From Termitidicoccus mucosus (GTDB lineage: Bacteria > Verrucomicrobiota > Verrucomicrobiia > Opitutales > Opitutaceae), in assembly GCF_038725785.1 (NCBI RefSeq), contig NZ_CP109796.1, forward strand, positions 7,688,501 through 7,752,500: a DNA stretch of 64,000 bases. Reading direction: 5' to 3'. A model generated the notes under the pieces. The model saw only the letters and a list, made by a program, of their open reading frames with translations. It made no database searches and was not told where the DNA came from. This document shows, piece by piece, positions 5,611 to 59,395 of this stretch. Position numbers and translations under genes: made by a program. The stretch's first letter is position 1; the number at the start of each line of letters is the position of its first letter.

Positions 5611-5651
5611 GAACGTTGGCGCGGGCGTGAATGAGGGGTGGTGACGGGGGC

Positions 5652-7214: not shown

Positions 7215-7242
7215 GTGCGGGTGTTTTCGGGGACTGAAAAGC

Positions 7243-10095
7243 TTAGCGGGCGAGTTCGTAGGCGAGTTGCGTGCCGGCCTTGTCAATGGTGGAAACGGCG
7301 AGGGTGAGCGGGCCGCCGGCCTGCCGGGTAAGCGGAATCCCGCGGATGCGTTTGCCGGTGGCGTCAACCGCCCATGCCTTCCAGTCGCCATCGGACAGGC
7401 GCAACGTGAGCGTGGCGGAGCCGCGTTGCACGAGGTGCGGGCCGGTCCCCCAATACTTGAGGAGCTTGTAGTCGGTGTGGCTGAACTTCGCGCCTTGCGG
7501 GAGCGCGTTGGTGAGGTGCGTGACGAGGATGCGCCGGGCGTCGGCGAGCGCGGGCGGCGCGGCGTCGGCTTTTGTCGCCAGCGCGATGACGGAGATGGAG
7601 CAGCGGGTGCCGCCATTGACAACGGAGACGCACGCGCCGTCGAGGCGGCTGCCGGGCGCGAGCACGAACAGCTCGCTGCGCGGCGAGACGGCTTTCACGG
7701 TGCCGGTGTCGGCGCGGAGTTCGATTTCGCCGGTGTCGGCGGCGTAGCGCGCGCGGTCGGCGCTGATGGAGCCGGCGGGAATCACGCCGTCGCGTTCGAG
7801 CCCGGCGGCGAGGTCATCGCCCATGAGGTAAGCCTTGGGCGGAAGTTCTTGTCTCGTTTCACCGGTGACGACGGCGTCGAGGTTTTGCGCCGCGCCGAAT
7901 TTCGTGAGCACCCCGGAGGGTCGGTCAGGCAGCGAGCCGATGCGCGCGACAAGGCCGAGCGGCGAGAATTCGCCAGGAAAGAGGCGTCCGAGGCTGGTGA
8001 ACGCCTCGTCGGGATTCACCGCGTAGGCGATGGCATGTTTTGCGGGGGCGATGTCGAAGCGTTGGAAAACGAGCGAGCCGGTGCGATCGGCGATGAGGCC
8101 GACGGGGTCGGTGGCGATGGCGAAGTAGTTGTCCACGCCGCCGTGGATGGCCATCCTGTCGTCCTTCGCGTATTGGAAATTGTAGAGCGCGTCCCAATCT
8201 TGGAGGCTGGCATAGGCGGGCATGAGCACCGCGCCCTCGAAACGATATTGGTTGGGGCGGCAGAAATTGAACTCGGTGCTGACAAAGGGCCGGCCGAAAA
8301 TACGCACGGGCATGATGCGGTTGGGCATCTTGGCCCGGGCCTTGACGGAGCTGCCCTGGCCGAACGCGAAGGGCGCGGCCCAGGACTTCACGGGGAATTT
8401 CGGATGATCCCAATAGCTGTGGCAGTCAACGTAATCGTATTCGGCACGGACGGCGGCGAGTCCTTGCGCGATGGTGTAGTTTGCGCCGGTGAGGAGCGCC
8501 TTGGTGCCGAGCGAGCGCAGATAGGCGAACAGGCGCGCGTCGGATTGGCGATTAAGCTCGTGGATGAACTGGTTGAAGGCGGGATTGCTCGTGCCGGGCT
8601 TGCCGGGGAGACCCGCTTTTTCGAAGGCTTCTTTGTAGAGCGCGAAGATTTTGGGGTCGCCCTCGATATGGTTGAAGAGCGGGTTTTCGTTGACCGGACA
8701 GATGCCGATGAGCGCAGGGTCCTCGGCCCACGTGAGGCCGGTGTGGGGATTTTTGTGCGTGAGGAGGTTTTTCGCGAAACGCCGCCATGACTCGAACGCG
8801 CCGTTGTTGACCGGGAGGATGGCTTTGAAGAGGTCGCGGCTTTTGCCGCCTGGAAATCCCCAGGACGCGCATTCCTCCGCGCTGAAGCCCCGGCTGGCGT
8901 AAAGGTCGATGTTGATGTAAATGCCGCGTTTCTTCAGGGCGGCGAAAAGGTAGTCGAGCTTGTCGAGCTGCGCCGCGTCGAGTTCCCACGACAGGCCGCC
9001 CTTGCGCACCACGCCGCCGTCGAAATGATGGAAGCGGACGGTGTTGTAGCCGGAGCGCGCGAACCGTTCGGCCATCAGGTCGGCCTCCTCCTTCTCCAGA
9101 TACTGCGCCGAGAAACATAGGTTCACACCCCAGAAGCGAACGCGTTCGCCGGGGCGGCCTTCAAATTCGAAATGCCCGGCGGGCGTGGCGCGGATGGCGC
9201 CAAATTTTCCGGCAGGCGCGTGCAGCGTGGACGAAAAATCAAACACGCCGCCTTTCTCGATATCGAGCGAGTGATGGTAGGGCGCCCACTCCGGGCCCGG
9301 CTCGATGATGAAATCCTTCGGGACGACGCCGACGTTGATTGGCTGCCTGGAGGCGGAGAGCGCGACGATCATCCACGCCGCGCCGCCGGTCTGCAGAAAT
9401 TCGATCGAGGCCAACGGTTTTTCATCGACGCGGAAGCGCGATACGTAGAGGCCGATGGAGGCGGTGGCGTTTTCCGATTCCCATGCGATGCCGGCGTTTT
9501 CGGCGCTGGCGGGGTCGCGCCAGTTGCCGATGTCGGTTTTGTTTTTTATCTCGTGGCGCGTTTCCGAGCCGTCGGCGTAATGCGCGGTGAGAGTGCCGAG
9601 CACTTCGCCGGGTGTTTTGAGCGGATTGGCGGCGGCGTGCAGCAGATAAAGAAAACGATACGACGGCGGCGCGCCGTTTTCGCCGGCTGCGATTTTCACG
9701 GTGGCAGATTCGGAGATGCCGGTGCGCGTGTCGGTGCTCTCGCGCGCGGCCTCGCCGGCGTCGGACGCGACCTGCTGGCTGGCGCGACCGAGCACGATGG
9801 CGGAGCGGCCTTCATTGTCGTCGGGATTGATGATGTCGAAGGTGACGCCGGAGGCGGTAAGCACGCCGGGGCGCAGGGTGGCGAGGTCGTTGTCCGGCCC
9901 CTGATCGGTCCAGCCACCCCTGCCGTCGCCGGCGACCTGGTCACGAAACCCGCGATTGGCGGCCTCGCGGATGGAGAGGGGCGTGACCTGCGCGGACGCG
10001 CTCGCCGTGGCGTTTGCAGAGAGGGACGCACCGGGTAAAAACACGGACAGCGCAAATGCGGCGAAAGCGCGAAGGGGCAGGGTTGCGTCACTCAT
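7243..10095 (-). CDS. exported clan GH-A glycoside hydrolase, long N-terminal beta domain
   Basis: 950 aa. A signal peptide (about 1-30) is followed by an approximately 250-residue beta-rich N-terminal domain absent from its paralogue at 25342. The catalytic unit starts at EWAPYHHSLDIEKGGVFDF, with the shared block HFEFEGRPGERVRFWGVN and then a TIM barrel. The likely acid/base Glu is in ICPVNENPLFN (about 468) and the nucleophile Glu in FVSTEFNFCRPNQ (about 608), the NE / TEF spacing of clan GH-A. A C-terminal beta domain ends in a Trp-rich GDWKAWAVDATGKRIR segment also found in the paralogues. The GH family number cannot be given from sequence alone. It is the first gene of a four-gene operon, with a TTACGTAA site 49 bp upstream. 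Confidence 0.82.
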   Translation of the reverse strand: MSDATLPLRAFAAFALSVFLPGASLSANATASASAQVTPLSIREAANRGFRDQVAGDGRGGWTDQGPDNDLATLRPGVLTASGVTFDIINPDDNEGRSAIVLGRASQQVASDAGEAARESTDTRTGISESATVKIAAGENGAPPSYRFLYLLHAAANPLKTPGEVLGTLTAHYADGSETRHEIKNKTDIGNWRDPASAENAGIAWESENATASIGLYVSRFRVDEKPLASIEFLQTGGAAWMIVALSASRQPINVGVVPKDFIIEPGPEWAPYHHSLDIEKGGVFDFSSTLHAPAGKFGAIRATPAGHFEFEGRPGERVRFWGVNLCFSAQYLEKEEADLMAERFARSGYNTVRFHHFDGGVVRKGGLSWELDAAQLDKLDYLFAALKKRGIYINIDLYASRGFSAEECASWGFPGGKSRDLFKAILPVNNGAFESWRRFAKNLLTHKNPHTGLTWAEDPALIGICPVNENPLFNHIEGDPKIFALYKEAFEKAGLPGKPGTSNPAFNQFIHELNRQSDARLFAYLRSLGTKALLTGANYTIAQGLAAVRAEYDYVDCHSYWDHPKFPVKSWAAPFAFGQGSSVKARAKMPNRIMPVRIFGRPFVSTEFNFCRPNQYRFEGAVLMPAYASLQDWDALYNFQYAKDDRMAIHGGVDNYFAIATDPVGLIADRTGSLVFQRFDIAPAKHAIAYAVNPDEAFTSLGRLFPGEFSPLGLVARIGSLPDRPSGVLTKFGAAQNLDAVVTGETRQELPPKAYLMGDDLAAGLERDGVIPAGSISADRARYAADTGEIELRADTGTVKAVSPRSELFVLAPGSRLDGACVSVVNGGTRCSISVIALATKADAAPPALADARRILVTHLTNALPQGAKFSHTDYKLLKYWGTGPHLVQRGSATLTLRLSDGDWKAWAVDATGKRIRGIPLTRQAGGPLTLAVSTIDKAGTQLAYELAR

Positions 10096-10143
10096 GGGTC
10101 GATATTGCTGGCCGTGTTTGTCGCCAGACAGCCTTGGATTGTC

Positions 10144-10151
10144 TTACGTAA
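10144..10151 (-). promoter_or_regulatory. putative LacI-family operator, TTACGTAA
   Basis: Palindrome 49 bp upstream of the operon start at 10095. On the minus strand a TTGCGG hexamer ends 17 nt before the palindrome, so the operator would overlap the -10 region. The promoter reading is inference. Confidence 0.62.
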
Positions 10152-10271
10152 AATGAACCTCGCCTGTGCCGCAAGGCGGACGCGTGATTTTGGCGGGGCA
10201 TGGTGGAAATTATCACTGGGTGGCTGCGGCGCGCGGGATGAGCGGATTTTTTGGGATGCGATTCTGCCAAC

Positions 10272-10295
10272 GGGTTTCGCAAGCGAAACCCCTAC
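10272..10295. repeat. short palindromic element (GTAGGG type) overlapping the GH36 stop codon
   Basis: On the minus strand it reads GTAGGG followed by a stem GTTTCGC / GCGAAAC closing on a tiny loop. The leading GTAG plus TTGC in the loop match the elements at 14441, 57169 and 57219. The TAG of GTAG is the stop codon of the alpha-galactosidase gene. Confidence 0.7.
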
Positions 10296-12565: not shown

Positions 12566-12569
12566 TGGA

Positions 12570-15470
12570 TCACCTCGTTTCATCGAGGAAAACCTTTGTC
12601 GTAAGCGTGAGGGCTTTTGTCGGACGCTCGGTGGCAAGGACGACGGTGGCGTGGTTGGTGGTCTTGCCGGGCTTGAGCGTGGCGTCGGGCATGGGTTCGA
12701 GCGAAACGTGGAGTTTCGCGTCGGTCTCGTAGTCGAGCACGATGTCGGCAACGCGGACGCGTCCGGTGGTGGCGAGGTCGGCCACGGCATCGGAGGGCGC
12801 GCCGAGGTGCCAGCGGAAGAGCACCACGTCGGGGAAGTCTAGCTCGACCTCATCGCGAATGGTTGCGCCGGCGGCATCCCATGTGACGGAGCGCACCCAG
12901 CGTTTCAGGCCGGCGTAGCAGCCGGAGGCATCGACGGAAACGTCGCCACCTTTTTCGTCGAGGCGGCGGACGGTCATGAGTGCGGCACGGTGCGCGGGGT
13001 CGAGGATCTGGCCGGCGCCGTCGGCGAGGATTTTGGCGGTGAGCTGATCCGGCGCATAGGGGCCGACCTGAAGGACGTTGTGGCCGGCGACGCTCTTGAA
13101 ATAGCTGGCGTGCCCGGCGATGCCGTAGGAGGCAAGACCGGCCTCGATGAGCACGGGGCGGCCGCGAATTACGAGGTTCACGTGGCCCCGGTCTTGGTGA
13201 TCGTGCGCGTCGGTGGCGTGGCCGCCTCGCATCCAAAAACCGGACACACGATTCGCCGGGCCGCGCGAATAGGCGTCGATGCTTTCCACCCAATTGACGC
13301 GCGTCGCGACGGGCCAGGCGGCGAAGGCCGCGGGGGGCGCGCCCCCCGCCGGATCGAGTTGCGCGGCGCGAAAGATGGCGAGGGTGATGGCGTCTGGCGC
13401 TTCCAACGGGCGGTGTTGGAAGACCCAGAGCGCGGCGGGGTCGGCGAGGTCGGCGGCGAGTTTGGCGACGACCTCCCAGTCGAGGTCGCTGTTTTGCGAA
13501 TCGAAGGCGTTGATGACGAAGCCGGCGGGCTGGCGGTGTTGCAAATACCACGCGGGGAAGGCGCGCAGCCACGGGTGGTTGATCAGGCGGTCGTCGCCAT
13601 GCGCGCGGGCGGCGAGCGCGGCGGCGAGCAGGCTGTGGAAGGTGATGCCGGCGTATTGCATGCCCTCGACGCACTCGCCTTGCGGGCCCTGCGCGTCGAG
13701 CGAGCGGATGAGTCCGGCGACGGCAAATTCGTAGTCGTCGCGGTGTTTGTCGAGGCCGTTGAAAAGACTGGCGAGCGCGAGCGCCTCCAGCGGGAGCACC
13801 CATTGGTTCGACGACGCGGCCTCGATGCGGGTGAACCAGTTTCGTTTCAATCGCCAGTCGTCGCGGATGCCGGTGATTTCGTCCTCAAAGCGGGTGGCGA
13901 GCGCGGCGCGAAGCTCCGGGGTGAGCCCGCCGTCGGGAAGCTCGGCCGCGCATTCGACAATCGCGCGCACGGCCCAGCCGGTGCCGAGCCACGCGCTCCG
14001 GGTGTCTGAGCCGCCGCTCCAACCGGCGCGCTGGAGCGGCGACCAGGTGGCGAGTTCGGCCAGTTGATCGCGGACGTAGCCGAGCAGCTCCGGATCGCCG
14101 GACATGCGCGCGGCGGCGGCAGCGGCAGGCAAAAGGCGTCCGAGATCGCGCGCGGCCTCGGCGTCGGCGAGCGAGATGGCGAAACGCTCCCACTCAGCAT
14201 CGCTGCGTTTCGACATATGCGCGGGCTTCTCGCGATACTTCATGCGGAATTTCGGATTGGCTTTGAGCTCGGCGAGAGTTTGCGGGCGGCGGATGACGCC
14301 GCGCCCGGCAACGGTTTTGCGGACGGCGGCGATGAAATCGGCTTCCGTGACGGTGGTGGCGTTTGTTGCAGGGCTCGACCGCGTTGGGGGCGCCGCGTTC
14401 CGAGTGGCGGAGGTGTTTTGTTCGCGGGTTTCGCGCGCGCGGCCTGACACAAGGTCAGGCCCTACCTGGGAGTCAGCGATAGCGGCGGGGTCGGCGAAAC
14501 CGATACTCAGCGGCTTTTCATAGGCGGCCTCGTTGGCGGAGGGCGGGAGGCGGTCGAGGGAGACGAGGCGGGCGCGGGCGAATCTCGCGCATTCGTAGTG
14601 GCCGTGCGAGGTGGGATGTGCGTTGTCGTAGAAAAGGTGCCGGTTCGAGGCGCGGCTGGGCGTGGTGACATCGGTGAAACCATAGGCCGTGGGATCGGCC
14701 ATCACCGCGTCGAAAAAGGTGTGCGCGTCGAGCGTGACGAGGTCGATGGCGGAAAATTTGGCGCGGAGGTTCGCGACAGCATCGTCCATGCGGGTGTTGA
14801 ACGCGGCGGAGGCGTCGCGGAAACCGCGCATGAGCGAGTCGCGGTATTTCGGGCGGTCTTTCAGGCGCGCAGCGAGCGAGGGCGGGCGGCTGAGATCGGG
14901 AAGGTTGACCCAGAGGATATGCACGGCGCCGGCGCGGGCGAGGCGGGTGATTTGTTTCTCGACGCGGGCGGCGGCTTTTTTGCCGGTGGAGACGAGGCCC
15001 TTTTCGAGATTGGAGAAGACGAAGCCGAGGGGGGATTTGTCGCGGAGATAGTGGGTGAGGTCGTTGCCGCCGCTCCAAAGGGTGTAGAGGGCGAGCGGGT
15101 CGGCCTTGCCTTTGCAAATTTCAAGGTAGCGGTCGATTTGCTCCTCAAGTTCCTTCGTGTCGGTGCCGCCGACGGCGTAGTTGGCGCCGCCGCGCTCCCA
15201 TTTTTCGAGGCGGCCGAGCCCGGCCATGAGCGAGAGTTGCTGCACCCAGGTGAGGCGCGGGTAGTTGCCGTTTTCCGCCGTGGGCGCGGGGCCGGTGCTG
15301 GGAGAATTTTTGCCGCGTCCGCCCGAGCTGAGGCTGTCGCCAAACGCGATGATGCGCGAGTAGGCGACAGGGGCGGCGGTGATGGAGTCGGCAGCCGCAA
15401 ACGCAGTGAGGAGACCGGATAGAGCCCAAACAGAAAGCAGGGCGCGGAGGAGGCGGGGCGAGGCGTGCAT
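12570..15470 (-). CDS. exported GDSL/SGNH esterase fused to heparinase II/III-like lyase
   Basis: 966 aa, signal peptide about 1-27. The first catalytic module is an SGNH hydrolase: block I IIAFGDSLSSGG (Ser about 44), block III SGGNDLTH, block V DNAHPTSHGH with Asp and His. A linker at about 340-370 contains a palindromic element in frame (PDLVSGR). The second module (about 390-960) has an alpha/alpha-toroid followed by a beta-sandwich, with the heparinase II/III-like GGHATDAHDHQDRGHVNL segment. The protein could deacylate and then cleave a uronic-acid polysaccharide by beta-elimination. This is inference from the two families; substrate unknown. The stop is 4 bp before the GH36 start. An operator-like site lies 67 bp upstream. 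Its GDSL module resembles that of the giant protein at 15627. Confidence 0.85.
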   Translation of the reverse strand: MHASPRLLRALLSVWALSGLLTAFAAADSITAAPVAYSRIIAFGDSLSSGGRGKNSPSTGPAPTAENGNYPRLTWVQQLSLMAGLGRLEKWERGGANYAVGGTDTKELEEQIDRYLEICKGKADPLALYTLWSGGNDLTHYLRDKSPLGFVFSNLEKGLVSTGKKAAARVEKQITRLARAGAVHILWVNLPDLSRPPSLAARLKDRPKYRDSLMRGFRDASAAFNTRMDDAVANLRAKFSAIDLVTLDAHTFFDAVMADPTAYGFTDVTTPSRASNRHLFYDNAHPTSHGHYECARFARARLVSLDRLPPSANEAAYEKPLSIGFADPAAIADSQVGPDLVSGRARETREQNTSATRNAAPPTRSSPATNATTVTEADFIAAVRKTVAGRGVIRRPQTLAELKANPKFRMKYREKPAHMSKRSDAEWERFAISLADAEAARDLGRLLPAAAAAARMSGDPELLGYVRDQLAELATWSPLQRAGWSGGSDTRSAWLGTGWAVRAIVECAAELPDGGLTPELRAALATRFEDEITGIRDDWRLKRNWFTRIEAASSNQWVLPLEALALASLFNGLDKHRDDYEFAVAGLIRSLDAQGPQGECVEGMQYAGITFHSLLAAALAARAHGDDRLINHPWLRAFPAWYLQHRQPAGFVINAFDSQNSDLDWEVVAKLAADLADPAALWVFQHRPLEAPDAITLAIFRAAQLDPAGGAPPAAFAAWPVATRVNWVESIDAYSRGPANRVSGFWMRGGHATDAHDHQDRGHVNLVIRGRPVLIEAGLASYGIAGHASYFKSVAGHNVLQVGPYAPDQLTAKILADGAGQILDPAHRAALMTVRRLDEKGGDVSVDASGCYAGLKRWVRSVTWDAAGATIRDEVELDFPDVVLFRWHLGAPSDAVADLATTGRVRVADIVLDYETDAKLHVSLEPMPDATLKPGKTTNHATVVLATERPTKALTLTTKVFLDETR
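14441..14465. repeat. palindromic element (GTAGGG type) in frame inside the GDSL-heparinase gene
   Basis: GGCCTGAC, ACAAG, GTCAGGCC, then CTAC. It sits between the two catalytic modules and is translated as part of the linker. The same stem (GGCCTGAC/GTCAGGCC) recurs at 57219 in the autotransporter gene. Confidence 0.75.
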
Positions 15471-15536
15471 GCGTAGGAAGTTTTTCTACGAGGACGTTAA
15501 TGACCGCAATGCGGGGATTGCGGCCATAATTGGGTT

Positions 15537-15544
15537 TTACGTAA
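15537..15544 (-). promoter_or_regulatory. putative LacI-family operator, TTACGTAA
   Basis: Palindrome 67 bp upstream of the GDSL-heparinase start. It is in the gap between that gene and the end of the giant gene. Confidence 0.62.
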
Positions 15545-15558
15545 GCTGGATTGGTCCC

Positions 15559-15629
15559 TGGCGCAGGCATCGCTGCCTGCGCCACGAGGCCGCGCTTCGC
15601 GCATCAACACGGGCTGGCAACCCGTGCTA
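15559..15629. repeat. pair of palindromic elements, second one supplies a stop codon
   Basis: TGGCGCAGGCA / TGCCTGCGCCA with a 4-base loop (15559-15584), then CACGGG / CCCGTG (15608-15626) flanked by CTAC. On the minus strand the TAG of the flank is the stop codon of the 2858-residue gene. Confidence 0.6.
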
Positions 15630-18600
15630 CCGCCGCTTGCGCAAGTGGAGGGCGGCGCACACGGCGAGGGCGGCAAGGAATCCAACCGAAGGCGCGCCGC
15701 CACCGCCGCCGCCCGAACCACCGGGGGATTGACCGGGCGGAGGCGTGACAGACGAGGACGCGGGAGACTTGAGCGCGAGGGTCGTGACAGTGGCGGAGGC
15801 GTCGGGAGCGATGCGGCGGAGGGCGCCGTTGCCTGTATCCGCCACGTAGATACTGCCGTCCTCGGCGAGGGCGAGGGCGGACGGACTGGAGAAACGCGCC
15901 GCCGTGCCGCCGCCGTCCACAAAGCCGGGGGCGCCACCGACCAGCGTGCCCACGGTTCGTCCGTCGTCCGAGGTGATGAGGCGGATGCGCGAGTTGCCCG
16001 TGTCGGCCACATATACGTCGCCAGTTCCATCCACGATAAGATCGCCGGGAAAGCGGAAGGTGGACGCGCCCAGCGCGCCGCCGTCGGCGTCGCCGGCGAC
16101 GCCCATTTGCCCGGCAAAGGTGCTCACGACTCCGCCACTCAGGTCAATGAGGCGGATGACGTGATTACCGGTGTCGGCCACGTAGAGGTAGCTGCCGGTC
16201 ACATCGACGGCAACGCCTGCGGGCGAGTTGAATTGCGCCTCAAGCAAGGGACCGTTGGCAGTGCCCGACGTGGCGGATCCGGCCACGGTGCGCACCTCGC
16301 CCGAGGCGATGATTTTCTTGATCAAGTGGTTTCCAGTGTCGGCGATGTAGGTTTCGCCGGACGCCGCGTCGAATGCGGCGACGCCGGCCGCCGCCGCGAG
16401 GTCCGCGTCTGCACCGGCGGTGCCTGTGGTCGCGACCGTGCCGTCGGCGGTGGCGGAGCGCAGGAGATTGTTGCCGCTGTCTGCCACGATGAGCGCGCCG
16501 GCGTGGTTGATCGAGAGTCCGCGCGGACGGTTGAAGAGCGCGATGGTGCCGGTGCCGTCCGCCAGACCGGGCGAACCGGGATTGCCCGCGAACGTGGTGA
16601 TGGTGCCCGAGGCAATGACTTGAATCGTGTGCAGTGCGATGTCGGAAACGTAGAGTTTGTAATTGGCGCTTCCCGAGGAGGCGACCACGCCCGCCGGCGC
16701 GGGCAGCACGCCGCTGTCGCCGGCATCGGGCTTGATGATGACTTGCCGGGTCGAACTTGTCCCGCCACTGGCCGTGGTGACACTGACGAGGCCGCCGGCG
16801 GTGCCCGAGGGAATCCTGACTGTTATCGCGGTGCCGGTGTTGGCAACTATCTCCGCCGCCACGCTGCCGATGGTCACGGTCGCGCCGGCGAGATTCTGGC
16901 CGGTGATGGTGACGAGGGCGCCGGGATGCACATTGAGCGGCAGGATGTTACTTATCGTCGGCGCGGGTGGTGGCGCGCCCGTGACGGCAAGCGTCTGGCT
17001 GGCGGTGACCGTGCCGCCGCCGGTCGTCACGACGATCGCGATGTTTTCGCCGAGCACGGCCTCCGGCACGGTGACGGTCAGCGAGGTAGCGCCGTCAGCG
17101 GTCACGGTGGCGGAGATGCCGCCGATGGCGACAGACGCGCCGGCCAGGTTCGCACCGGTGATGGCAATGCTTGAGCCGGGAGCGACGGCGAGCGGGAAAA
17201 CGTCGCTGATCACCGGCTCAGGCAGCGTGACGGCAATCGTCTGCGCCGCGGTCACGGCGCCGCCCGCGGTGGAGACGACCACCGCACCGTCACCGCCGAA
17301 CGCGCCGGCGGGAACGGTGACGGCGAGCGACGTGCCGGTGCTGGCGATAACCGCCGCTGCCGCGCCGCCGATGGTGACAGTCGCGTCGAAGAGGTTTTCG
17401 CCGGTGATGGTGACGCTGTCGCCGGGATGCGCGGCGAGCGGGGAAACGCCGGTCACGACCGGCGGCGCGGCGGAGCCGGTCAACACAAGCTCGTAGGCGA
17501 ACTGCGCACCGGTTTCGGAAATGCCGGCAGTGGAGATTTCCATGCGCCAGACATTGGTGTCGCCGACACGGACGAGGGGATGCTCGCGGAGGCGGGCGCC
17601 GGTCATGTCCACGGCCCATGCGGTCCATCCGCCGGCAGGGAGCGTGAGGTCGAGGGTGGCGGAGCCGGCGCGGACGAGGTGCGGGAGCGAGCCCCAGGCG
17701 GTGAGTTGCTTGCGGTCGGCGGCGGCGAAGGTCATGCCGGTGGTGAGGGCGTCGGTGAGGTGGGTGACGAGGAGGCGGCGGGCGGCGGCGAGCGCGGGAG
17801 CGTCGGCGCCGGCGGCGATTTCGGAGGCGGTTTTCAGGGCGACGACGGAGACGGTGCCGAAGACGGAGCCGTTGGCGACGGTGACGCGGTCGCCGGCGAG
17901 GGTGGCGCCGGGGGCGAGGATGAAGTGTTCGCCGCGGGGGGTGACGGCGCGGAAGATGCCGGCGGCGGTATTGAGGGTGAGCTGGCCGGTTTCGCTGGCG
18001 GTGCCGTCGGCGCCGGCGGCGGGGAGGATGCCATCGTCACGGAGTTTGGTGACGAGACTGGTGCCGGCGACATAGGTTCTGGCAGCGGCGTTTTCGGCGA
18101 GACCGGCGGCGGAGCCGGTGACGGCGGCGGCGAGGCCGGGGTTGGCGGCGAGCACGGCGGCGGGGGCGCCGGGGAGCGAGCCGATACGGGCGACGAGGCC
18201 GACGTGGCGAAAGTTGTCGTCGAACTCGCGGCCGGGGTTGCCGCTGGAGTCGTTGGCGTAGGCTTCGGTGTCGGTGACGGCGTAGGCGACCGTGGTGGTG
18301 GCCGGGGCGATGTCGCCGCGCAGGAAGAGGAGCGCGCCGAGGCGGTCGCCGACGAGGCCGACGGGATCGTTGGCGATGGCGAAGTAGTTGTCGGCGGTGC
18401 CGGTGGTGGCGCCGGCGATGTCCTTTGCGTAGTCGAAATTATACATGGCGTCCCAGTCCTGAAGGCTGGCGTAGGCGGGCATGAGGAGGGGGCCCTCGGC
18501 GCGGTAGCGGTTGGGTCGGCAGAAGTGAAACTCGGTGCTGGTGAAGGGTTTTCCTAAAATGCGCGTGGGCATCATACGGGCGGGGTTATAGGCGCTGGTC

Positions 18601-21600
18601 GCGGTGGCGCTGGACTGGGAGAAGTTGATGGGCAGCGACCACGAGTTTACGGGGAAGCTGGGGTGGTCCCAGTAGAGGTGGCCGTCCACGTAGTCGTAGC
18701 GGGAGCGCAGGTCAACGAGCGCGGCGGCGACGGTGTTGTTGGCCGTGGTGATGAGTGCCTTGGAGCCGAGCGAGCGGATGTGGGTGGCCATGGCGTCGTT
18801 GGAGGCGCGGGCATTCTCAAAGACGAAGCGGTTCCAGTCGGCGCCTTTATAGGTGGTGCTGCCAGTCAGAGCGGTGTAGCGGGCCTTGAAGAGAGAGGAA
18901 ACCTCGGTCGGGATGGCGTCGGAAACGCTGTCGCGATGCGGCGGGTTTTCGTTGACGGGGCAGATGCCGATGAGCGCGGGGTCGGCGGCCCAAGTCAGGC
19001 CGGTGTAGGGGTTGGCGTGGGTGAGGAGGTTGGTGGCGAAGTTTTTCCAGGATTCGAGCGCGGCGTCGGAGATGGCGAAGAGGCCTTTGCAGTTGTTCTT
19101 GGCGATGCTCGTGGTGATGCCGGGGCCGAAGGAGGCTGCCTCGGTCTCGCTGAAGCCGCGCGAACCGTAGAGGTCTATGTTGATGTAGATGCCCTGCTGC
19201 TTGAGGGCGTAAAAGAGATAGTCGAGTTTTTCGAGACGGGCGGTGTCGAGGTCCCAAGAGTCGCCGCCGGCGGAGATGCTGCTGCTGACCAGATACTCGT
19301 CGAAGAGGTGGAGGCGGACGGTGTTGTAGCCGGAGCGGGCAAGGCGCGCGGCAAGCTGGTCGGCCTGCGCGTGGGTGTTGAGGAAATTGGCCATCTGGAC
19401 GATGTTGACGCCCCAGAAGCGGGCGCGCACGCCGGGGCGGTTTTCAAACTCGAAGTGGCCGGCGGCGGTGGCGTGGAGCGCGCCGTGTTTGCCGGCGGGG
19501 GCGTCGAGCAGGCCCTGTTGCGCGAAGTCGAAGACGCCACCCTCGGCGATATCGAGCGAGTGGGTGAGCGGCACCCAGCCGCCGTTTTCGGCGACGGTGG
19601 TGAAGGTGTCGTAATCGGGCGTGGGCGCGATGGTGATGGCGAGCGGAGCGGAGGTGGCGGGGTTGTGGTTTGCGTCGCCGGCCTTGGTGGCAGTGACGGT
19701 GATTTCGCCCGCGCCGGTGATGGTGACCTCGCCCTCCGCGGACACGGTGGCGACGGCGTCGGTGCCGGCGGTGCGCGCGAACGTGAGCGCGCCCGTGCCG
19801 GCGCCACCGGTGACGGCGAGCGTGAAGGGCGCGTCGGCGGCGGTTTTGCCGGTGACGGGCGTGATGACGAGCGCGGGCTGATCGGCTTTGGCGATGGTGA
19901 TGGCGAGCGGGGCGGAGGTGGCGGCGGCGTAACGGGCGTCGGCGGTTTTCGAGGCGGTGACGGTGATGTCGCCAGCGCCGGTGATGGTGACGAGGCCGGC
20001 CTCGGAAACGGTGGCGGTGGCGTCGGTGCCGGCGGTGCGGGCGAACGTGAGCGCGCCCATGCCGGCACCGCCGGTGGCGGCAAGCTGGAACGCGGCATCG
20101 CCGTATTTCTTGCCGGTGACAGCGGTGACGACGAGGGCGGGCTGGGCGGCTTTTGTGATGGCGAGGGTTTGCGCGGCGGTGGTCGTGCCGGCGTCGGTGG
20201 TGACGGCGACGGCGACGGTGTCGCCGAGGACGCCTTCCGGCACGGTGACGGTGAGCGAGGTCGCGCTGCTGGCGGTCACGGTAGCGGCGACACCGCCGAT
20301 GGTGACGGTGGTCACGGTCGCGCCGACGAGATTCGTGCCGGTGATGGTGATGCTGCCGCCGGGGTGGACGTCAGTCGGCGTGATGCCGGTAATGACCGGC
20401 GCGGGCGGCGGCACGGCCGTGATGGTCAGGGTCTGCGCGGCGGTGGTCGTGCCGCCGGCGGTGGTCACGGCGACGGCTTTGTTTTCACCGAGCACGCCCT
20501 CCGGCACAGTGACGGTGAGCGAGGTCGCGCCGGGAGCGGTGATGGTGGCGGCGACGCTGCCGATGGTCACGGTCGCGCCGTCGAGGTTCGCGCCGGTGAT
20601 GGTGATGCTGCCGCCGGGGGCGACGGAAAGCGGCGTGATGCCGGTGACGACCGGCGGGGGTGGCGTCACGGTAAGTGCCTGGCTGGCGATGACGGTGCCG
20701 CCGGCAGTGGTGACGGCGACGGCGATGCCGGTGGCGACGGCGGTCTCCACGGGCACGGTGACGGTGATGGAGGAGCCGGTGTTTTCGGTAATGACCGCCT
20801 CCTCGCCGCCGATGGTGACGGTGGCATCATCGAGATTCGAGCCGGTGATGGTGACGTTGCCGCCGGGATAGACGGTGAGTGGGTAAATGCTGGCAATCGC
20901 CGGCGCGAGCAGCGTGACGGTGAGTGTCTGGTCGGCAGTGACGGTACCACCGGCGGTGGTCACGACGACGGAGACGGCGCCGCCGACCGCGCCGGACGCG
21001 GAGGGCACGGTGACGGTGATGCTCGTGGCGGTATTGGCGGTGACGGTGGCGGTGACGCCGCCGATGGTGACGGTGGCGTCATCGAGATTCGTGCCGGTGA
21101 TGGTGATGCTGTCGCCGGGGTGGACGGCAGTCGGCGTGATGCCGGTGATGGCGGGCGCGGGCAGGCCGACGACGGAGGCCCAGGTTTTGCCGACGCGGAT
21201 GGCGTCAACGACGTGGTAGCGGCCGGTGCCCGCGTCAGGGTTTATGGCGATGAGGTTGTTGGTGCGGACACGGATGCCGGTGATGGCTGTGGAGCCGCCG
21301 GAACCGGGGGAATAAGCGCGAGTGATGGTAGTGACGGAGGAGTTTTCGTCGGTGGTCTTGGGGTTGCGCCAGACTTGGGCGGTGCGGTAGGCGGTGCCAT
21401 CCCAGCCGGTGTATTTGACGACAGCGAAGTAGGTCTGGCCGTAGGCGTGCGAGCCGACGCTGGAACCTCGGGCGTTGTTGACTTGGGGATGGAAGCCGCC
21501 ACTGTAGCCGACGGCGACAGCGGTGTCGGTGGTGGCTTTGGCGGAGTCCTTGCCGAACCAGCAGAGGAGGTTATTGCCGGAGGAGAAGGTGGTGTCGTCG

Positions 21601-24203
21601 GTTTTGGAGAGGTCTTTTATCTTGTAAATGAAGCTGACGAAAAGGTCCGCGCCTTCGGCGGGGGCGGTGGCGAAGTCGCGTTGGAGGGCGGTGTCTTGAT
21701 CGAAATTGTTGGCGGTGGCGGTGGAGGAAACGACGATGACGGAGCCGGCGGTGCCGCTGCCGAGGATGGTGCCGTTGTCGAGGGTATAGGAGATGAGGTC
21801 GGCGGGGTCGTGGGAGACGGTGACGGTAGTGGCGGCTTGGGTGGTCCAAGCGGCGACCCAGCCGGTGCCGCCGGCGGACTGGCTGGCGAGGGTGGAGCCG
21901 GGGGTATAGGAGTCGAAGTTGTCCTCGGCGATGAGGTCGGGATTGGAGGGGGTGGTTTTGATGGTGAGCTGCTGAAGGGCAACGAAGTCGCCGGCGAGGG
22001 TATCGAGGGCGATTCCGGCGGCGCCGAGAGGGGCGTCTTCGGGGACGGTGAAGGTGAGTTCGGCGTCGCTTTGGGCGGTGATGGCCGCGGGCTTGCCGCC
22101 GACGGCGAGGGTGACGATGCCGGAGAGGTTTTGGCCGGTGAGGGTGACGCTGTCGCCGGGGGCGGCGGTGGTCGTGGAGAAGCCGGTGACGGAGGGCACG
22201 GGCGGGAGCGCGGCGGCGGTCCACGCGGCGACGTGGGTGGTCTGGTTGGAGGAGGGCGCGGTGGCGGCGGTGACGGCGGCGCCGGCGGTGGCGCCGGCGG
22301 GGAAGAGGACTTTGGCGAAGGTGTTGTTGGCGCCGATGATTTCGGCGGGGATGCCGCCGATGGTGACGGCGGAGAGGCCGGCGAGGTTCGAGCCGGTGAT
22401 GCTGACGATGTCGCCGGGGACGGGCACGGCATTTTCGCAATAGACCGCGGTGATGGCGGGGGCGGGCGGCGGGACCACGAGGCCGGCGGCCTGCCAGTCG
22501 GCGAGCACTTGGTTCGCGATGAGGTTGTGGCCGTGGGCGGTGGGGTGGACGTTGTCCCAGAAGAGGTAGTTGTTGGCGGCGGCGGTGGTGACGCCGTCGG
22601 CGGCGCACGAACTGGTGACGTTGGTGAAGCCGTGGGCGGCGGGGTCGGCGATGATGGCGTTGAAGGTGTCCCACGCGCTGAAGGTGCGGATGGTGATGCC
22701 GGGATTGGCGGCAGTCAGGCGCGCGATGGCGGCGGGCATTTTGGCGTTAAAAGCCGCGGCGGCCGATTGCATGATGTCGGCCAGGGTGCCTTTTAACGAG
22801 GAGAGCCCGTATTGGGTGGCATAATTTTCGACCGCCGGGGTCGCCCCGAGGTTGGGAAGGTCAATCCAATAAAACCGGGTCGCCCCGCTCGCGGCGAGCC
22901 GCTGGATTTGCGCCTCCATCCGGTCCGCCGCGGCCTCGGCCACCGCGACGATGGTTGTCTTGGCGGACGAGGGGCTCAGCAAGATGGAGAACGCGTTGTC
23001 CTGCACGGCGTGGCCGACATCGTTTCCGCCGCACCAGAGGACGTAGAGGTTTTGCAGCGAGGCGACATTGGAGTAGTCCGCGAGAAAATCGCCAACACGG
23101 CCGACCATGTCCGCCGTGGTGTGTCCGCCCTTGGCGTAGTTGGTGCCGATGCCGTCAACCTGATGGTTGCCGAGCGCGCCGTAGCCCGCCAGCGGCGAGA
23201 GCTGGGTTATCCAGGTGAGTTTCGGATACTCGGGCGTGGAAGCGGGGCCGGTGGAGGGGTTGTTGCCGGGGCCGCCGGAGGAGAGGGAGTCGCCAAAGAC
23301 GACCACGCGCGGCACGTCGGCGGGCGCGGCGGTGACGCCCGTCGGCGCGCCGACCACATCCGCCCAACTGGTGCCGACGCGGAGCGCGTCAATGAGGAAG
23401 TGGCGCCCGCCGTTGCTGGCGAGGCCGGTGGTGCGCACGCGGATGCCGTTGAACGCGTCCGAGCCGCCGGCGGTGGCGGTTTTGGTGACGGCGACAGCGG
23501 TGCTGGCGGACGCCTCGTCGTTCGGCGTCGGGTTCAGCCAGACCTTGCACGCCTTGTAGGAAGCGCCGTCCCAGCCGGTGTATTTGACGACGAAAAGCAT
23601 GTTTTGCCCGAAGACGAGCGGCGCGCTGACGGGCGAGGAGGTGAGCGAGGAGTTGTTGACGCGGGCGGTGGCCCTGCCGTTGGCGCCGATGACGCCCATC
23701 GTGTCAACGGCGTTGTCGTCGTCGGCATCCTTCGCGACCCAGCCGGTGAGGATGTTGCCGGAGGTGGGGATCTCGGCGCCGTCCGGCTCGGCGCCGTTGG
23801 AGTTTGCGGAGTGGATGCGGAAAACGAAGGAGAGGAAGACATCGGAGCCGTCGGTGACGGGCGTGGCAAGGGCGCGGGAGAGGACGGAGTTCACGTCGGC
23901 GCCGGTGATTTTGAGGGCGTTGCCGCCGCCGAGGACGACGCCGTTTGGCAACATATAGGTGACGGGCGCGGCGTCGTCGGCGACGGTCGCGCCGGCCTGC
24001 GCGGAGTAGGCGGCGCCCCAGCCGGTGCCGGCGTTGGCCCCGGAGAGCGCGCCGGCGGCGTAGGAGTCGAAGTCGTCGGTGGCGATGAGCGCGGCGCGGG
24101 CGGGGGCGAGGGCGCTGGCGAACGCGGCGAAGGCGATCGCGAGGGTGCTGATGGGGAGCGACGGGCGCCGTATGGCGTGCATGAGGAAGCAAAAGCAGTG
24201 CAT
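15627..24203 (-). CDS. giant modular exoenzyme: GDSL esterase + clan GH-A hydrolase + IPT repeats + NHL propeller
   Basis: 2858 aa from MHCFCFLMHAIRR; the second Met (24182) is an equally good start and gives a typical signal peptide. Approximate order: beta-sandwich 1 (40-300, DDFDSYAAG), SGNH esterase (300-590: VVFGDSLSSGG, WCGGNDVGH, DNVHPTAHGH), two IPT/TIG, beta-sandwich 2 (755-1020, DNFDSYTPG), four IPT/TIG, two MBG-like repeats (1350-1530), glycoside hydrolase (1530-2245; ICPVNENPPHRD, STEFHFCRPNRY), three IPT/TIG, six NHL-type blades (2495-2815), then SGGGGGGAPS, a hydrophobic helix and LRKRR. Known families give extracellular ester and glycoside cleavage. The NHL and IPT parts are probably scaffolding or glycan binding. 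The tail suggests sorting or surface retention. A one-base variant of the operator stands 90 bp upstream. Confidence 0.85.
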   Translation of the reverse strand: MHCFCFLMHAIRRPSLPISTLAIAFAAFASALAPARAALIATDDFDSYAAGALSGANAGTGWGAAYSAQAGATVADDAAPVTYMLPNGVVLGGGNALKITGADVNSVLSRALATPVTDGSDVFLSFVFRIHSANSNGAEPDGAEIPTSGNILTGWVAKDADDDNAVDTMGVIGANGRATARVNNSSLTSSPVSAPLVFGQNMLFVVKYTGWDGASYKACKVWLNPTPNDEASASTAVAVTKTATAGGSDAFNGIRVRTTGLASNGGRHFLIDALRVGTSWADVVGAPTGVTAAPADVPRVVVFGDSLSSGGPGNNPSTGPASTPEYPKLTWITQLSPLAGYGALGNHQVDGIGTNYAKGGHTTADMVGRVGDFLADYSNVASLQNLYVLWCGGNDVGHAVQDNAFSILLSPSSAKTTIVAVAEAAADRMEAQIQRLAASGATRFYWIDLPNLGATPAVENYATQYGLSSLKGTLADIMQSAAAAFNAKMPAAIARLTAANPGITIRTFSAWDTFNAIIADPAAHGFTNVTSSCAADGVTTAAANNYLFWDNVHPTAHGHNLIANQVLADWQAAGLVVPPPAPAITAVYCENAVPVPGDIVSITGSNLAGLSAVTIGGIPAEIIGANNTFAKVLFPAGATAGAAVTAATAPSSNQTTHVAAWTAAALPPVPSVTGFSTTTAAPGDSVTLTGQNLSGIVTLAVGGKPAAITAQSDAELTFTVPEDAPLGAAGIALDTLAGDFVALQQLTIKTTPSNPDLIAEDNFDSYTPGSTLASQSAGGTGWVAAWTTQAATTVTVSHDPADLISYTLDNGTILGSGTAGSVIVVSSTATANNFDQDTALQRDFATAPAEGADLFVSFIYKIKDLSKTDDTTFSSGNNLLCWFGKDSAKATTDTAVAVGYSGGFHPQVNNARGSSVGSHAYGQTYFAVVKYTGWDGTAYRTAQVWRNPKTTDENSSVTTITRAYSPGSGGSTAITGIRVRTNNLIAINPDAGTGRYHVVDAIRVGKTWASVVGLPAPAITGITPTAVHPGDSITITGTNLDDATVTIGGVTATVTANTATSITVTVPSASGAVGGAVSVVVTTAGGTVTADQTLTVTLLAPAIASIYPLTVYPGGNVTITGSNLDDATVTIGGEEAVITENTGSSITVTVPVETAVATGIAVAVTTAGGTVIASQALTVTPPPPVVTGITPLSVAPGGSITITGANLDGATVTIGSVAATITAPGATSLTVTVPEGVLGENKAVAVTTAGGTTTAAQTLTITAVPPPAPVITGITPTDVHPGGSITITGTNLVGATVTTVTIGGVAATVTASSATSLTVTVPEGVLGDTVAVAVTTDAGTTTAAQTLAITKAAQPALVVTAVTGKKYGDAAFQLAATGGAGMGALTFARTAGTDATATVSEAGLVTITGAGDITVTASKTADARYAAATSAPLAITIAKADQPALVITPVTGKTAADAPFTLAVTGGAGTGALTFARTAGTDAVATVSAEGEVTITGAGEITVTATKAGDANHNPATSAPLAITIAPTPDYDTFTTVAENGGWVPLTHSLDIAEGGVFDFAQQGLLDAPAGKHGALHATAAGHFEFENRPGVRARFWGVNIVQMANFLNTHAQADQLAARLARSGYNTVRLHLFDEYLVSSSISAGGDSWDLDTARLEKLDYLFYALKQQGIYINIDLYGSRGFSETEAASFGPGITTSIAKNNCKGLFAISDAALESWKNFATNLLTHANPYTGLTWAADPALIGICPVNENPPHRDSVSDAIPTEVSSLFKARYTALTGSTTYKGADWNRFVFENARASNDAMATHIRSLGSKALITTANNTVAAALVDLRSRYDYVDGHLYWDHPSFPVNSWSLPINFSQSSATATSAYNPARMMPTRILGKPFTSTEFHFCRPNRYRAEGPLLMPAYASLQDWDAMYNFDYAKDIAGATTGTADNYFAIANDPVGLVGDRLGALLFLRGDIAPATTTVAYAVTDTEAYANDSSGNPGREFDDNFRHVGLVARIGSLPGAPAAVLAANPGLAAAVTGSAAGLAENAAARTYVAGTSLVTKLRDDGILPAAGADGTASETGQLTLNTAAGIFRAVTPRGEHFILAPGATLAGDRVTVANGSVFGTVSVVALKTASEIAAGADAPALAAARRLLVTHLTDALTTGMTFAAADRKQLTAWGSLPHLVRAGSATLDLTLPAGGWTAWAVDMTGARLREHPLVRVGDTNVWRMEISTAGISETGAQFAYELVLTGSAAPPVVTGVSPLAAHPGDSVTITGENLFDATVTIGGAAAAVIASTGTSLAVTVPAGAFGGDGAVVVSTAGGAVTAAQTIAVTLPEPVISDVFPLAVAPGSSIAITGANLAGASVAIGGISATVTADGATSLTVTVPEAVLGENIAIVVTTGGGTVTASQTLAVTGAPPPAPTISNILPLNVHPGALVTITGQNLAGATVTIGSVAAEIVANTGTAITVRIPSGTAGGLVSVTTASGGTSSTRQVIIKPDAGDSGVLPAPAGVVASSGSANYKLYVSDIALHTIQVIASGTITTFAGNPGSPGLADGTGTIALFNRPRGLSINHAGALIVADSGNNLLRSATADGTVATTGTAGADADLAAAAGVAAFDAASGETYIADTGNHLIKKIIASGEVRTVAGSATSGTANGPLLEAQFNSPAGVAVDVTGSYLYVADTGNHVIRLIDLSGGVVSTFAGQMGVAGDADGGALGASTFRFPGDLIVDGTGDVYVADTGNSRIRLITSDDGRTVGTLVGGAPGFVDGGGTAARFSSPSALALAEDGSIYVADTGNGALRRIAPDASATVTTLALKSPASSSVTPPPGQSPGGSGGGGGGAPSVGFLAALAVCAALHLRKRR

Positions 24204-24292
24204 GGCGGGGAAACGGTTGGGCGGGGACAATAGGAGGTTTTGACCGCCGGACATTTGCATCAAAGAATGGAGGGGGACAGAGAAACGAGTGC

Positions 24293-27555: not shown

Positions 27556-27643
27556 GGGCGGAAGGTTTGGGCTGGCGCGGGCGGGAGAACGAGAGCGAAT
27601 CCATTTGGGCATTTTTCATCCGTTTGGACAACCGGCGGTTTGC

Positions 27644-38917: not shown

Positions 38918-39084
38918 GATCGTGACAATTTTTCGGGTGAGGTTTTTGAGGAGAATGCGACGATGGAGGGTTTGCAAAAACGGCGGGCGGGGACGAGTTG
39001 CGGGGCGGGGAGGCAAAGGAACAATGAGATGGGCGTGCGAATGGTTTGCCGGTATGCAGGAAGCATGAACAGACGCATGATTGC

Positions 39085-44924: not shown

Positions 44925-44971
44925 CCGGATTGCAGGAAATCCTTTTTTATTTTAAACAACCAGTCCCAGTC

Positions 44972-59250: not shown

Positions 59251-59341
59251 GGTGGATGAGCGATTCGAAAAAAGACTGTTGTCGCCCGGGGTGCCGGGCG
59301 GAACGGCAGTGAAACGGAGAACTGCGCGGAACCCCGTTATC

Positions 59342-59353
59342 GCGTTACAACGC
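59342..59353. promoter_or_regulatory. putative XRE operator 1, GCGTTACAACGC
   Basis: Imperfect 12-bp palindrome preceded by TTATC, 92 bp upstream of the autotransporter start. Confidence 0.55.
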
Positions 59354-59395
59354 AAATCAATCCGCCGGATCCGCAAATCGATCAAGAAAAAAGTA

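Follow-up and report, generated by a model that had tools for sequence, protein, structure and literature searches.

Introduction

The surface association of GlyGly-CTERM proteins has been shown by experiment in Vibrio cholerae to depend on rhombosortase (PMC6219818, PMC13393428), and no genome had more than 13 GlyGly-CTERM proteins in a survey of 2011 (for the system, see PMC3237569, PMC6219818, PMC13393428). One such protein is attributed to Opitutus terrae in PMC3237569, the only paper that our search found to name rhombosortase together with Verrucomicrobia; a literature search on NHL propellers in Opitutus-type bacteria found none. With respect to enzymes, fused esterases of Bacteroidetes display intramolecular synergy (PMC7110780). 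In GH148 an insertion splits the catalytic domain, E239 and E581 of EngU being 342 residues apart (PMC5725463), and many GH148 genes have been reported in strain TAV5 (PMC8233224).

Here we describe a gene of Termitidicoccus mucosus in a window of 64,000 nucleotides (the whole stretch of DNA analysed). On balance, we consider its 2858-residue product to be a surface-displayed esterase and glycosidase that is sorted by a GlyGly-CTERM-like, rhombosortase-dependent tag.

The gene and its surroundings

The initial annotation described a 2858-residue exoprotein, and this is borne out: positions 15627-24203 hold one uninterrupted minus-strand open reading frame (ORF), which begins at the ATG at 24203 and encodes a secretion signal. 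Two other starts are possible, a TTG at 24263, which gives 2878 residues, and an ATG eight codons inside the ORF (MHAIRR...), which preserves the signal peptide. Third-position GC is 0.79-0.94 across all 240-codon windows of the ORF, and therefore it reads as a single coding gene throughout. The contig is 7.82 Mb long in an assembly of 2 contigs. An orthologue in a MAG from the genus is assembled only at its C-terminus; this part is 77% identical, has the same ending and adjoins an orthologue of the gene at 7243-10095. A scan for promoters and terminators immediately downstream of the gene found none. The surrounding locus contains a PF05426 lyase, two GH88 enzymes, a heparinase-like enzyme, a GH2 enzyme, a SASA esterase, a transporter and a TonB receptor. 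The no-enzyme paralogue (table 1) is 58% identical to the 2858-residue protein over the NHL propeller and tail.

Table 1. Features of the 2858-residue protein and related neighbouring genes (positions in the window).
Feature	Position	Strand	Basis or remark
Whole gene	15627..24203	-	2858 aa; possible earlier start TTG 24263
Predicted signal peptide, residues 1-38 (...ALAPARA/AL)	24090..24203	-	sequence
Sandwich 1, ConA-like lectin fold, residues 39-292	23328..24089	-	alignment; fold of homologue sandwich 2
SGNH/GDSL hydrolase, residues 298-566; S306, N394, D550, H553	22506..23312	-	GDSL lipase PF00657 at residues 300-566, 67.6 bits (cut-off 23.6); PlaA/ChoE matches
TIG/IPT domains, residues 580-740	21984..22466	-	Pfam; matches P0003 scaffold
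Sandwich 2, ConA-like lectin domain, residues 748-1014	21162..21962	-	AlphaFold2 model, pLDDT 92.2; fold match
TIG/IPT domains, residues 1017-1360	20124..21155	-	Pfam
Two MBG-like/Big_3_5 repeats, residues 1362-1525 (weak)	19629..20120	-	Pfam Big_3_5, 18.3 bits, below cut-off of 35.5; sequence
Clan GH-A hydrolase and C-terminal beta domains, residues 1533-2240; E1752 acid/base, E1891 nucleophile	17484..19607	-	
TIG/IPT domains, residues 2245-2500	16704..17471	-	Pfam
Six-bladed NHL propeller, residues 2512-2815	15759..16670	-	Pfam PF01436, 80.3 bits (cut-off 20); structure-database match; YVAD-type blades at 2517, 2571, 2618, 2673, 2730, 2785
GlyGly-CTERM-like tail GGGGGGAPSVGFLAALAVCAALHLRKRR, residues 2831-2858	15630..15713	-	tail comparison; rhombosortase link
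Adjacent gene: heparinase II/III-like domain with a fused SGNH domain, 40% identical to that of the 2858-aa protein	12570..15470	-	
Upstream gene: stand-alone GH-A-domain relative, 49% identity	25342..27612	-	
Stand-alone GH-A-domain relative, 51%, with N-terminal extension	7243..10095	-	
No-enzyme paralogue, sandwich-TIG-sandwich-TIG-NHL-tail	34217..39016	-	collinear with scaffold of the 2858-aa protein

Domain architecture and the two enzymes

From the N-terminus the order is sandwich, SGNH esterase, TIG, sandwich, TIG, MBG-like repeats, clan GH-A hydrolase, TIG, NHL propeller and tail, the TIG domains giving nine Pfam matches (205 bits). This order, the secretion signal and the anchoring-type tail had been proposed initially and are supported. 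The accompanying claim that no described protein has the same order is also upheld, as our searches found no relative with it; they found no relative joining the two enzymes in one chain and none joining the GH-A hydrolase to an NHL propeller. Fusion of enzymes in one chain does not require a common substrate.

SGNH blocks I (GDS), II (G), III (GxN) and V (DxxH) are all present in the esterase. Its best sequence matches among solved structures are PlaA (8a24) and ChoE (6uqv), and the only close relative found is in the adjacent gene, where that relative is fused to a heparinase-like enzyme.

The mid-chain hydrolase matches Cellulase (GH5, PF00150) weakly at residues 1606-1680 (13.8 bits against a cut-off of 23.5), and it is therefore not filed as GH5. 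By fold, its AlphaFold2 model (pLDDT 93.9, pTM 0.94) matches GH5 mannosidases, with Z 31.6 to 1uuq (rmsd 3.0, 329 aligned) and Z 26.2 to Op5Man5 (7bob). N1751-E1752 are located after a strand of the model and E1891 within a strand, in agreement with clan GH-A, where the acid/base Glu comes after an Asn at beta-4 and the nucleophile is a Glu at beta-7; both glutamates are invariant across 39 relatives. Both enzymes keep their catalytic motifs, as had been claimed; the hydrolase, weak in the domain search, is confirmed by its structure model and fold matches.

GH148 was considered for the hydrolase because of the many GH148 genes reported in strain TAV5 (PMC8233224), and was rejected: E1752 and E1891 are 139 residues apart, as against the 342 of EngU, which has the insertion. 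Op5Man5 was likewise rejected as a member of the hydrolase's own family, since the hydrolase profile (A4) misses 7bob by sequence and the match is by fold alone. Nor is the hydrolase a copy of the neighbouring stand-alone genes (P0004, P0005), from which the tree separates it, pairing it with L037, a sandwich-hydrolase protein from another Verrucomicrobiota (support 100/100). The hydrolase belongs to a family of its own, with members across PVC phyla and in Armatimonadota.

The C-terminal module and rhombosortase

The tail (GGGGGGAPSVGFLAALAVCAALHLRKRR) has the GlyGly-CTERM layout, with a Gly-rich motif, a transmembrane stretch and a basic end at the extreme C-terminus; a Cys is located in the hydrophobic stretch, and the motif itself is free of Cys. 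TIGR03501 gave no listed match to this tail, its model cut-off not being reached, and hence we use only the term GlyGly-CTERM-like; one of six tails tested from the genome passes (18.2 against 15.5). The MYXO-CTERM model TIGR03901 scores 11.9 bits, below its cut-off of 20, and the invariant motif Cys is missing.

At least 42 ORFs of the genome share the NHL propeller with a GGGAPSxW-TM-R ending. An ending composed of G3+(A/S), a hydrophobic stretch and basic residues is found in 42 of 50 NHL ORFs, a count that is restricted to NHL-bearing loci and biased towards tail-bearing matches by a search model containing two tails. Of the 293 other long ORFs, 2 have it. The cargoes comprise pectinesterase with pectate lyase (joined in one other chain), rhamnogalacturonan lyase, GH98, GH5, SASA esterase, BNR propellers, or no recognised enzyme; most of the module-bearing proteins scanned have one enzyme or none. 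The ending is probably a sorting tag that places many different glycan-cutting enzymes at the cell surface.

The genome encodes two rhombosortases (TIGR03902; 103.8 and 100.4 bits against a cut-off of 84), neither gene adjoining a tail gene, whereas none of 14 control genomes exceeds the cut-off. Among 100 Opitutaceae, rhombosortase is present in 19 of 20 genomes with an NHL propeller and tail among the best-scoring matches listed, compared with 35 of the 80 others (Fisher p = 2e-5, a value that is too small because the genomes share kinship). The single exception is a genome that is 68% complete. In other genomes the genes are linked: in G027, G047, G086 and G099 a tail-bearing gene is followed by a rhombosortase gene some 90-390 bp on, and in G015 the distance is about 2 kb. 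These five genomes belong to different genera, and their tails were re-read in the DNA. In the phylum sample outside Opitutaceae, searched at E <= 1e-60, two more genomes had NHL matches and the tail was reached in neither, which is no proof of absence because this cut-off is stricter than that of the family search. Eight secretins in the genome offer a possible outer-membrane route for the tail proteins.

Alternative explanations

The initial annotation suggested that the protein could be a single-chain alternative to a cellulosome. Of this, the two intact enzymes in one chain stand, but the chain has only one glycosidase, and no dockerin or cohesin was matched in Pfam at E <= 1. An explanation in which the enzymes were fused to attack the same glycan, the fusion being the point and the C-terminal module incidental, is conceivable and in our opinion doubtful. 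The complete catalytic sets, the synergy of the Bacteroidetes esterases (PMC7110780) and the pectinesterase and pectate lyase elsewhere in the genome, a textbook one-substrate pair, argue for it; against it, the two enzymes have separate histories with single-enzyme relatives adjacent, the SGNH domain is nearest among solved structures to the lysophospholipase PlaA and not to a carbohydrate esterase, and two enzymes in one chain are atypical of the module-bearing proteins scanned. The claimed pairing for one glycan fits poorly with the difference in origin, which leads to L037 for the hydrolase and to the adjacent heparinase-like fusion for the esterase. The cellulosome-like logic resides in the NHL and tail module common to at least 42 proteins of differing cargo. 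That the protein is instead an adhesin or glycan-binding protein anchored by this module, its catalytic domains serving attachment or the trimming of host or food glycans and not nutrition, is improbable: the lectin-fold and Ig-like stalk and the recurrence of the layout in no-enzyme versions (34217-39016 and L110) suit it, whereas the gene is located in a degradative locus (lyases, GH88, transporter, TonB receptor) and the Glu pair of the hydrolase is invariant.

The tail could also be a plain C-terminal membrane anchor, or be processed by an exosortase-type system, with the rhombosortase link due to shared ancestry only. We find this rather unlikely. MYXO-CTERM and PEP-CTERM models do score weakly on the tails, and 35 of 80 genomes carry rhombosortase with no listed tail match; on the other hand, the rhombosortase gene is linked to a tail gene in five genomes from different genera, and the near-complete co-occurrence, with its incomplete exception, is also against it. 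An artefact of assembly or read-through that fuses separate genes has next to nothing in its favour, the unassembled full orthologue in the MAG being the sole point, and the possibility of an assembly error raised at the outset was rejected given the uniform third-position GC. Stop codons are absent, the no-enzyme paralogue is collinear, the MAG contains the orthologous C-terminus and the assembly has only 2 contigs.

Several observations underlie the rhombosortase-dependent display that we favour: the sequence and its folds, the conservation of the catalytic residues, the recurrent use of the module and its association with rhombosortase genes. A long stalk would be formed by the two lectin-fold sandwiches together with some nine TIG domains of Ig-like type. 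It would bear the SGNH ester hydrolase towards the N-terminal end of the chain and, mid-chain, a retaining clan GH-A beta-glycosidase structurally closest to GH5 beta-mannosidases and mannanases, with the NHL propeller and tail as a stock C-terminal module. After Sec export, the hydrophobic stretch of the tail would hold the protein in the inner membrane until rhombosortase cuts the tail, and the protein would then be transferred to the outer surface and kept there; both cleavage and surface retention are inferred. The propeller presumably participates in display or binding, and both enzymes may act on one acylated, uronate-containing polysaccharide processed by the surrounding locus. More speculatively, and with little probability, the similar propellers might dock on a common surface partner, giving a rhombosortase-delivered, cell-bound array of dozens of unrelated glycan-cutting enzymes without dockerins.

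If rhombosortase-dependent display is right, some Verrucomicrobiota have made a little-known sorting system a general route of surface display for more than 40 large proteins, many of them glycan-degrading, and the loss of one or two rhombosortase genes should alter the set of enzymes on the cell surface. The protein is also a natural esterase-glycosidase fusion available for study.

Comparison with known systems

Bacteroides proteins with IPT/TIG and NHL domains (PDB 3hrp, 3tc9, 4hw6), which we take to be lipid-anchored and from glycan loci, match the propeller in sequence, and 4hw6, judging by its title, is TIG plus NHL as here; they lack catalytic domains and a C-terminal tail of the sort described here. 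PlaA-type GDSL lysophospholipases and ChoE (8a24, 6uqv) share the SGNH blocks, whereas the SGNH domain described here is located in a glycan locus. The GH5 beta-mannosidases and mannanases (1uuq, 1rh9, 8gf3, and 7bob from Opitutaceae TAV5, PMC8233224) share with the hydrolase a (beta/alpha)8 barrel in which the acid/base is the Glu of an NE pair and a second Glu is the nucleophile; the hydrolase is only 13-20% identical to them, falls below the Pfam GH5 cut-off and has additional C-terminal beta domains like those of GH42 and GH164 enzymes. Two catalytic domains per exported chain are also known from multicatalytic CAZymes such as the fused CE6-CE1 esterases (PMC7110780); here an esterase is combined with a glycosidase, a TIG/NHL stalk and a sorting tail.

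With regard to sorting, the MYXO-CTERM/myxosortase system (TIGR03901; PMC11980579) likewise has tripartite tails in dozens per genome, but the tails here are without its invariant motif Cys. With the system of GlyGly-CTERM and rhombosortase (TIGR03501/TIGR03902) the tails share a Gly/Ser-rich motif free of Cys, a hydrophobic stretch and a basic end, as well as the presence of rhombosortases in the genome and gene adjacency in other genomes. They differ in being of GGG(A/S)P type with W in many copies, mostly below the model cut-off, and in number and context: at least 42 copies, where the 2011 survey had no more than 13 per genome, coupled to an NHL propeller and served by two rhombosortases.

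A proposed display module shared across the genome

The 2858-residue protein is real and, taken singly, is an unusual multicatalytic enzyme, but its interest lies in its membership of a proposed genome-wide display module and not, as the initial annotation proposed, in being a single-chain alternative to a cellulosome. When the genome was searched with the enzyme-free gene of the window as query, dozens of NHL-bearing ORFs were recovered, ranging from 382 to 4041 aa. As read from the fetched DNA, 42 of 50 terminate in at least three Gly followed by Ala or Ser, a hydrophobic stretch and basic residues, a proportion biased upward because the search model for these ORFs included two tails. The same pattern occurs in 2 of 293 other ORFs of at least 300 aa on the same DNA stretches, a count that this bias does not inflate; these two lie opposite or beside other genes and are probably not genes. 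One more tail (L115, GGGGGGVPSHWFF) is outside the 42 and was not caught by the pattern. Across 14 aligned NHL and tail endings, three Gly and numerous blade residues are invariant. At L152 the module is broken up into several short reading frames, and this copy has probably decayed or suffered a frameshift.

The cargo in front of the module is diverse (table), and in several proteins the upstream Pfam domains are only RCC1, Ig, CBM96 or Golvesin. Therefore, the 2858-residue protein is one instance of a general design: variable cargo, an Ig/TIG/He_PIG stalk, an NHL propeller and a tail. The pectinesterase-pectate lyase chain, which also carries approximately eleven Ig domains, NHL and a GGGAPS tail, exemplifies the combination of esterase and polysaccharide-cutting enzyme in a single chain more clearly than the 2858-residue protein does. 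Elsewhere in the genome, three giant ORFs (L193 to L195) have He_PIG/Ig/NHL regions followed by a C-terminal CarboxypepD_reg, Plug and TonB-dependent receptor barrel; at least a thousand NHL/Ig residues before a receptor plug is unusual. A comparable ORF (L196) is seemingly interrupted by a frame change.

Features in the window (bare positions) and at fetched loci (L numbers) of the genome (G000; contigs C1, C2); cargo upstream of the module was assigned by Pfam alone
Feature	Position or locus	Strand	Basis
2858-aa protein	15627-24203	minus	
SGNH-heparinase II/III-like protein	12570-15470	minus	
Enzyme-free stalk gene	34217-39016		
Stand-alone hydrolases	7243-10095; 25342-27612		
Polysaccharide pyruvyl transferase-type protein	44885-46384	plus	
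Autotransporter with pertactin domain	56329-59385	minus	
Pectinesterase and pectate lyase, one 4041-aa chain	L132 (G000:C1:98500-118000), ORF 3764-15889	minus	Pfam
Rhamnogalacturonan lyase	L141		Pfam
GH98 with CBM6 and CBM96	L121		Pfam
GH5, in four	L114, L119 (two), L115		Pfam
SASA esterase and BNR propeller	L140		Pfam
FGE-sulfatase-type domain and BNR	L125		Pfam
BNR propellers	L111, L112, L113, L134		Pfam
DUF4838	L118		Pfam
M12-like peptidase	L143		Pfam
Split NHL module	L152 (G000:C1:2721500-2731500)		
NHL/Ig-TonB receptor, 3189 aa	L193 (G000:C1:376500-384500)		
NHL/Ig-TonB receptor, 3155 aa	L194 (G000:C1:3513500-3521500)		
NHL/Ig-TonB receptor, 3858 aa	L195 (G000:C1:3390500-3398500)		
Paired secretin genes	G000:C1:436636 and 7625657		
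Paired secretin genes	G000:C2:50428 and 101623		

Domains and catalytic residues

The initial annotation described a giant exoprotein in which both enzymes keep their catalytic motifs, and this description is correct. From the N-terminus, the chain consists of signal peptide, sandwich, SGNH, TIG, sandwich, TIG, MBG-like, hydrolase, TIG, six NHL blades and a Gly-rich tail that contains a hydrophobic stretch and terminates in KRR; Pfam finds GDSL lipase, nine TIG and NHL, with weak Cellulase and Big_3_5 matches. Third-position GC is 0.79-0.94 over the full length. The catalytic residues are present in the SGNH domain (S306, N394, D550, H553) and in the hydrolase (E1752, E1891).

Since the Pfam match of the hydrolase is weak, the residues of its relatives, an AlphaFold2 model and fold comparison were also considered. 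Both Glu are common to 39 sequences (Verrucomicrobiota, Lentisphaerota, Kiritimatiellota, Planctomycetota, Armatimonadota, Sumerlaeota). The model (pLDDT 93.9) has a clan GH-A fold, its closest solved folds being GH5 beta-mannosidases/mannanases (1uuq, Z 31.6, rmsd 3.0, 329 residues), and GH42- and GH164-type enzymes match a larger share of the chain at Z 24-27. In a profile alignment its NE motif aligns with that of GH5 mannanases. The domain belongs to clan GH-A, but its score is under the Pfam cut-off for GH5, so it was not placed there, and the insertion of GH148 is absent. As a first guess, its target is a beta-mannosidic or related beta-linkage. Two Opitutaceae of one genus (g6; G005, G053) carry this enzyme family in many copies but yielded no NHL hit to the module at E <= 0.001; the family is employed there in the absence of this display module.

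The nearest solved structures to the SGNH domain are PlaA lysophospholipase and ChoE. Among 100 Opitutaceae genomes its only close relative is that of the adjoining SGNH-heparinase gene, whose orthologue in another Opitutaceae MAG (L039) is without SGNH, the heparinase part being 82% identical. One modelled sandwich (pLDDT 92.2) has a ConA-like lectin fold; the top match is the BT_1020 middle domain (Z 14.5, rmsd 3.7, 179 residues), with numerous lectins, lyases and CBM66 a few Z units off, and sugar binding is plausible.

Origin of the architecture

The enzyme-free gene is collinear with the 2858-residue protein and equals its stalk minus the enzymes; a full-length orthologue (48% identity) is present in Opitutaceae Nm470_bin120, a MAG of the same genus. 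In the tree, the hydrolase domain joins with full support L037, a sandwich-hydrolase protein without NHL from another Verrucomicrobiota, and not the neighbouring stand-alone hydrolases. The sandwich-hydrolase unit therefore occurs outside the 2858-residue protein too, and either SGNH and propeller were joined to this unit or the unit was inserted into the stalk. The hydrolase was combined with SGNH or NHL in no other protein recovered.

Locus and proposed mechanism

The locus encodes a PF05426 lyase, two GH88, a heparinase-like enzyme, GH2, a trehalase-type GH and a SASA esterase, together with an MFS sugar transporter, a TonB receptor and a LacI regulator; this content points to an acylated, uronate-containing glycan. 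The pyruvyl transferase-type gene between the two GH88 genes is odd for a degradative locus, and the autotransporter is a second surface route in the window. Around the established architecture, folds, catalytic residues, recurrent module and rhombosortase association, a mechanism may be proposed: Sec would export the protein, rhombosortase would cut its tail, the protein would be kept at the cell surface, and esterase and glycosidase might both act on the polysaccharide degraded by the locus.

Tails and rhombosortase

The tail of the 2858-residue protein is under the cut-off of all NCBI sorting-tag models. One other tail of the genome exceeds that for GlyGly-CTERM (18.2 vs 15.5), and two fall at most half a bit short of MYXO-CTERM; unlike MYXO-CTERM, these near-threshold tails lack its invariant Cys (PMC3237569, PMC11980579). 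Two rhombosortases with GLSG active-site motifs are above the TIGR03902 cut-off. Among the 100 Opitutaceae, which are related and not independent, and counting the best-scoring listed matches of a longer list, rhombosortase is over the cut-off in 19 of 20 genomes whose NHL match extends into the tail (the sole exception is 68% complete) and in 35 of the remaining 80; within these 80, it is present in 9 of the 23 whose listed NHL matches end before the tail. A rhombosortase gene follows a tail-bearing NHL gene by approximately 90-390 bp in G027, G047, G086 (two loci) and G099, and lies approximately 2 kb from two such genes in G015, all tails being read from DNA. The 2011 survey took such adjacency as support for pairing, and reported one GlyGly-CTERM protein in Opitutus terrae and a maximum of 13 in any genome (PMC3237569).

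The genome encodes eight secretins; two pairs have identical scores, which suggests recent duplications or phage-type copies. In Vibrio cholerae, tag and rhombosortase are enough for membrane association, and outer membrane crossing requires a separate signal (PMC13393428).
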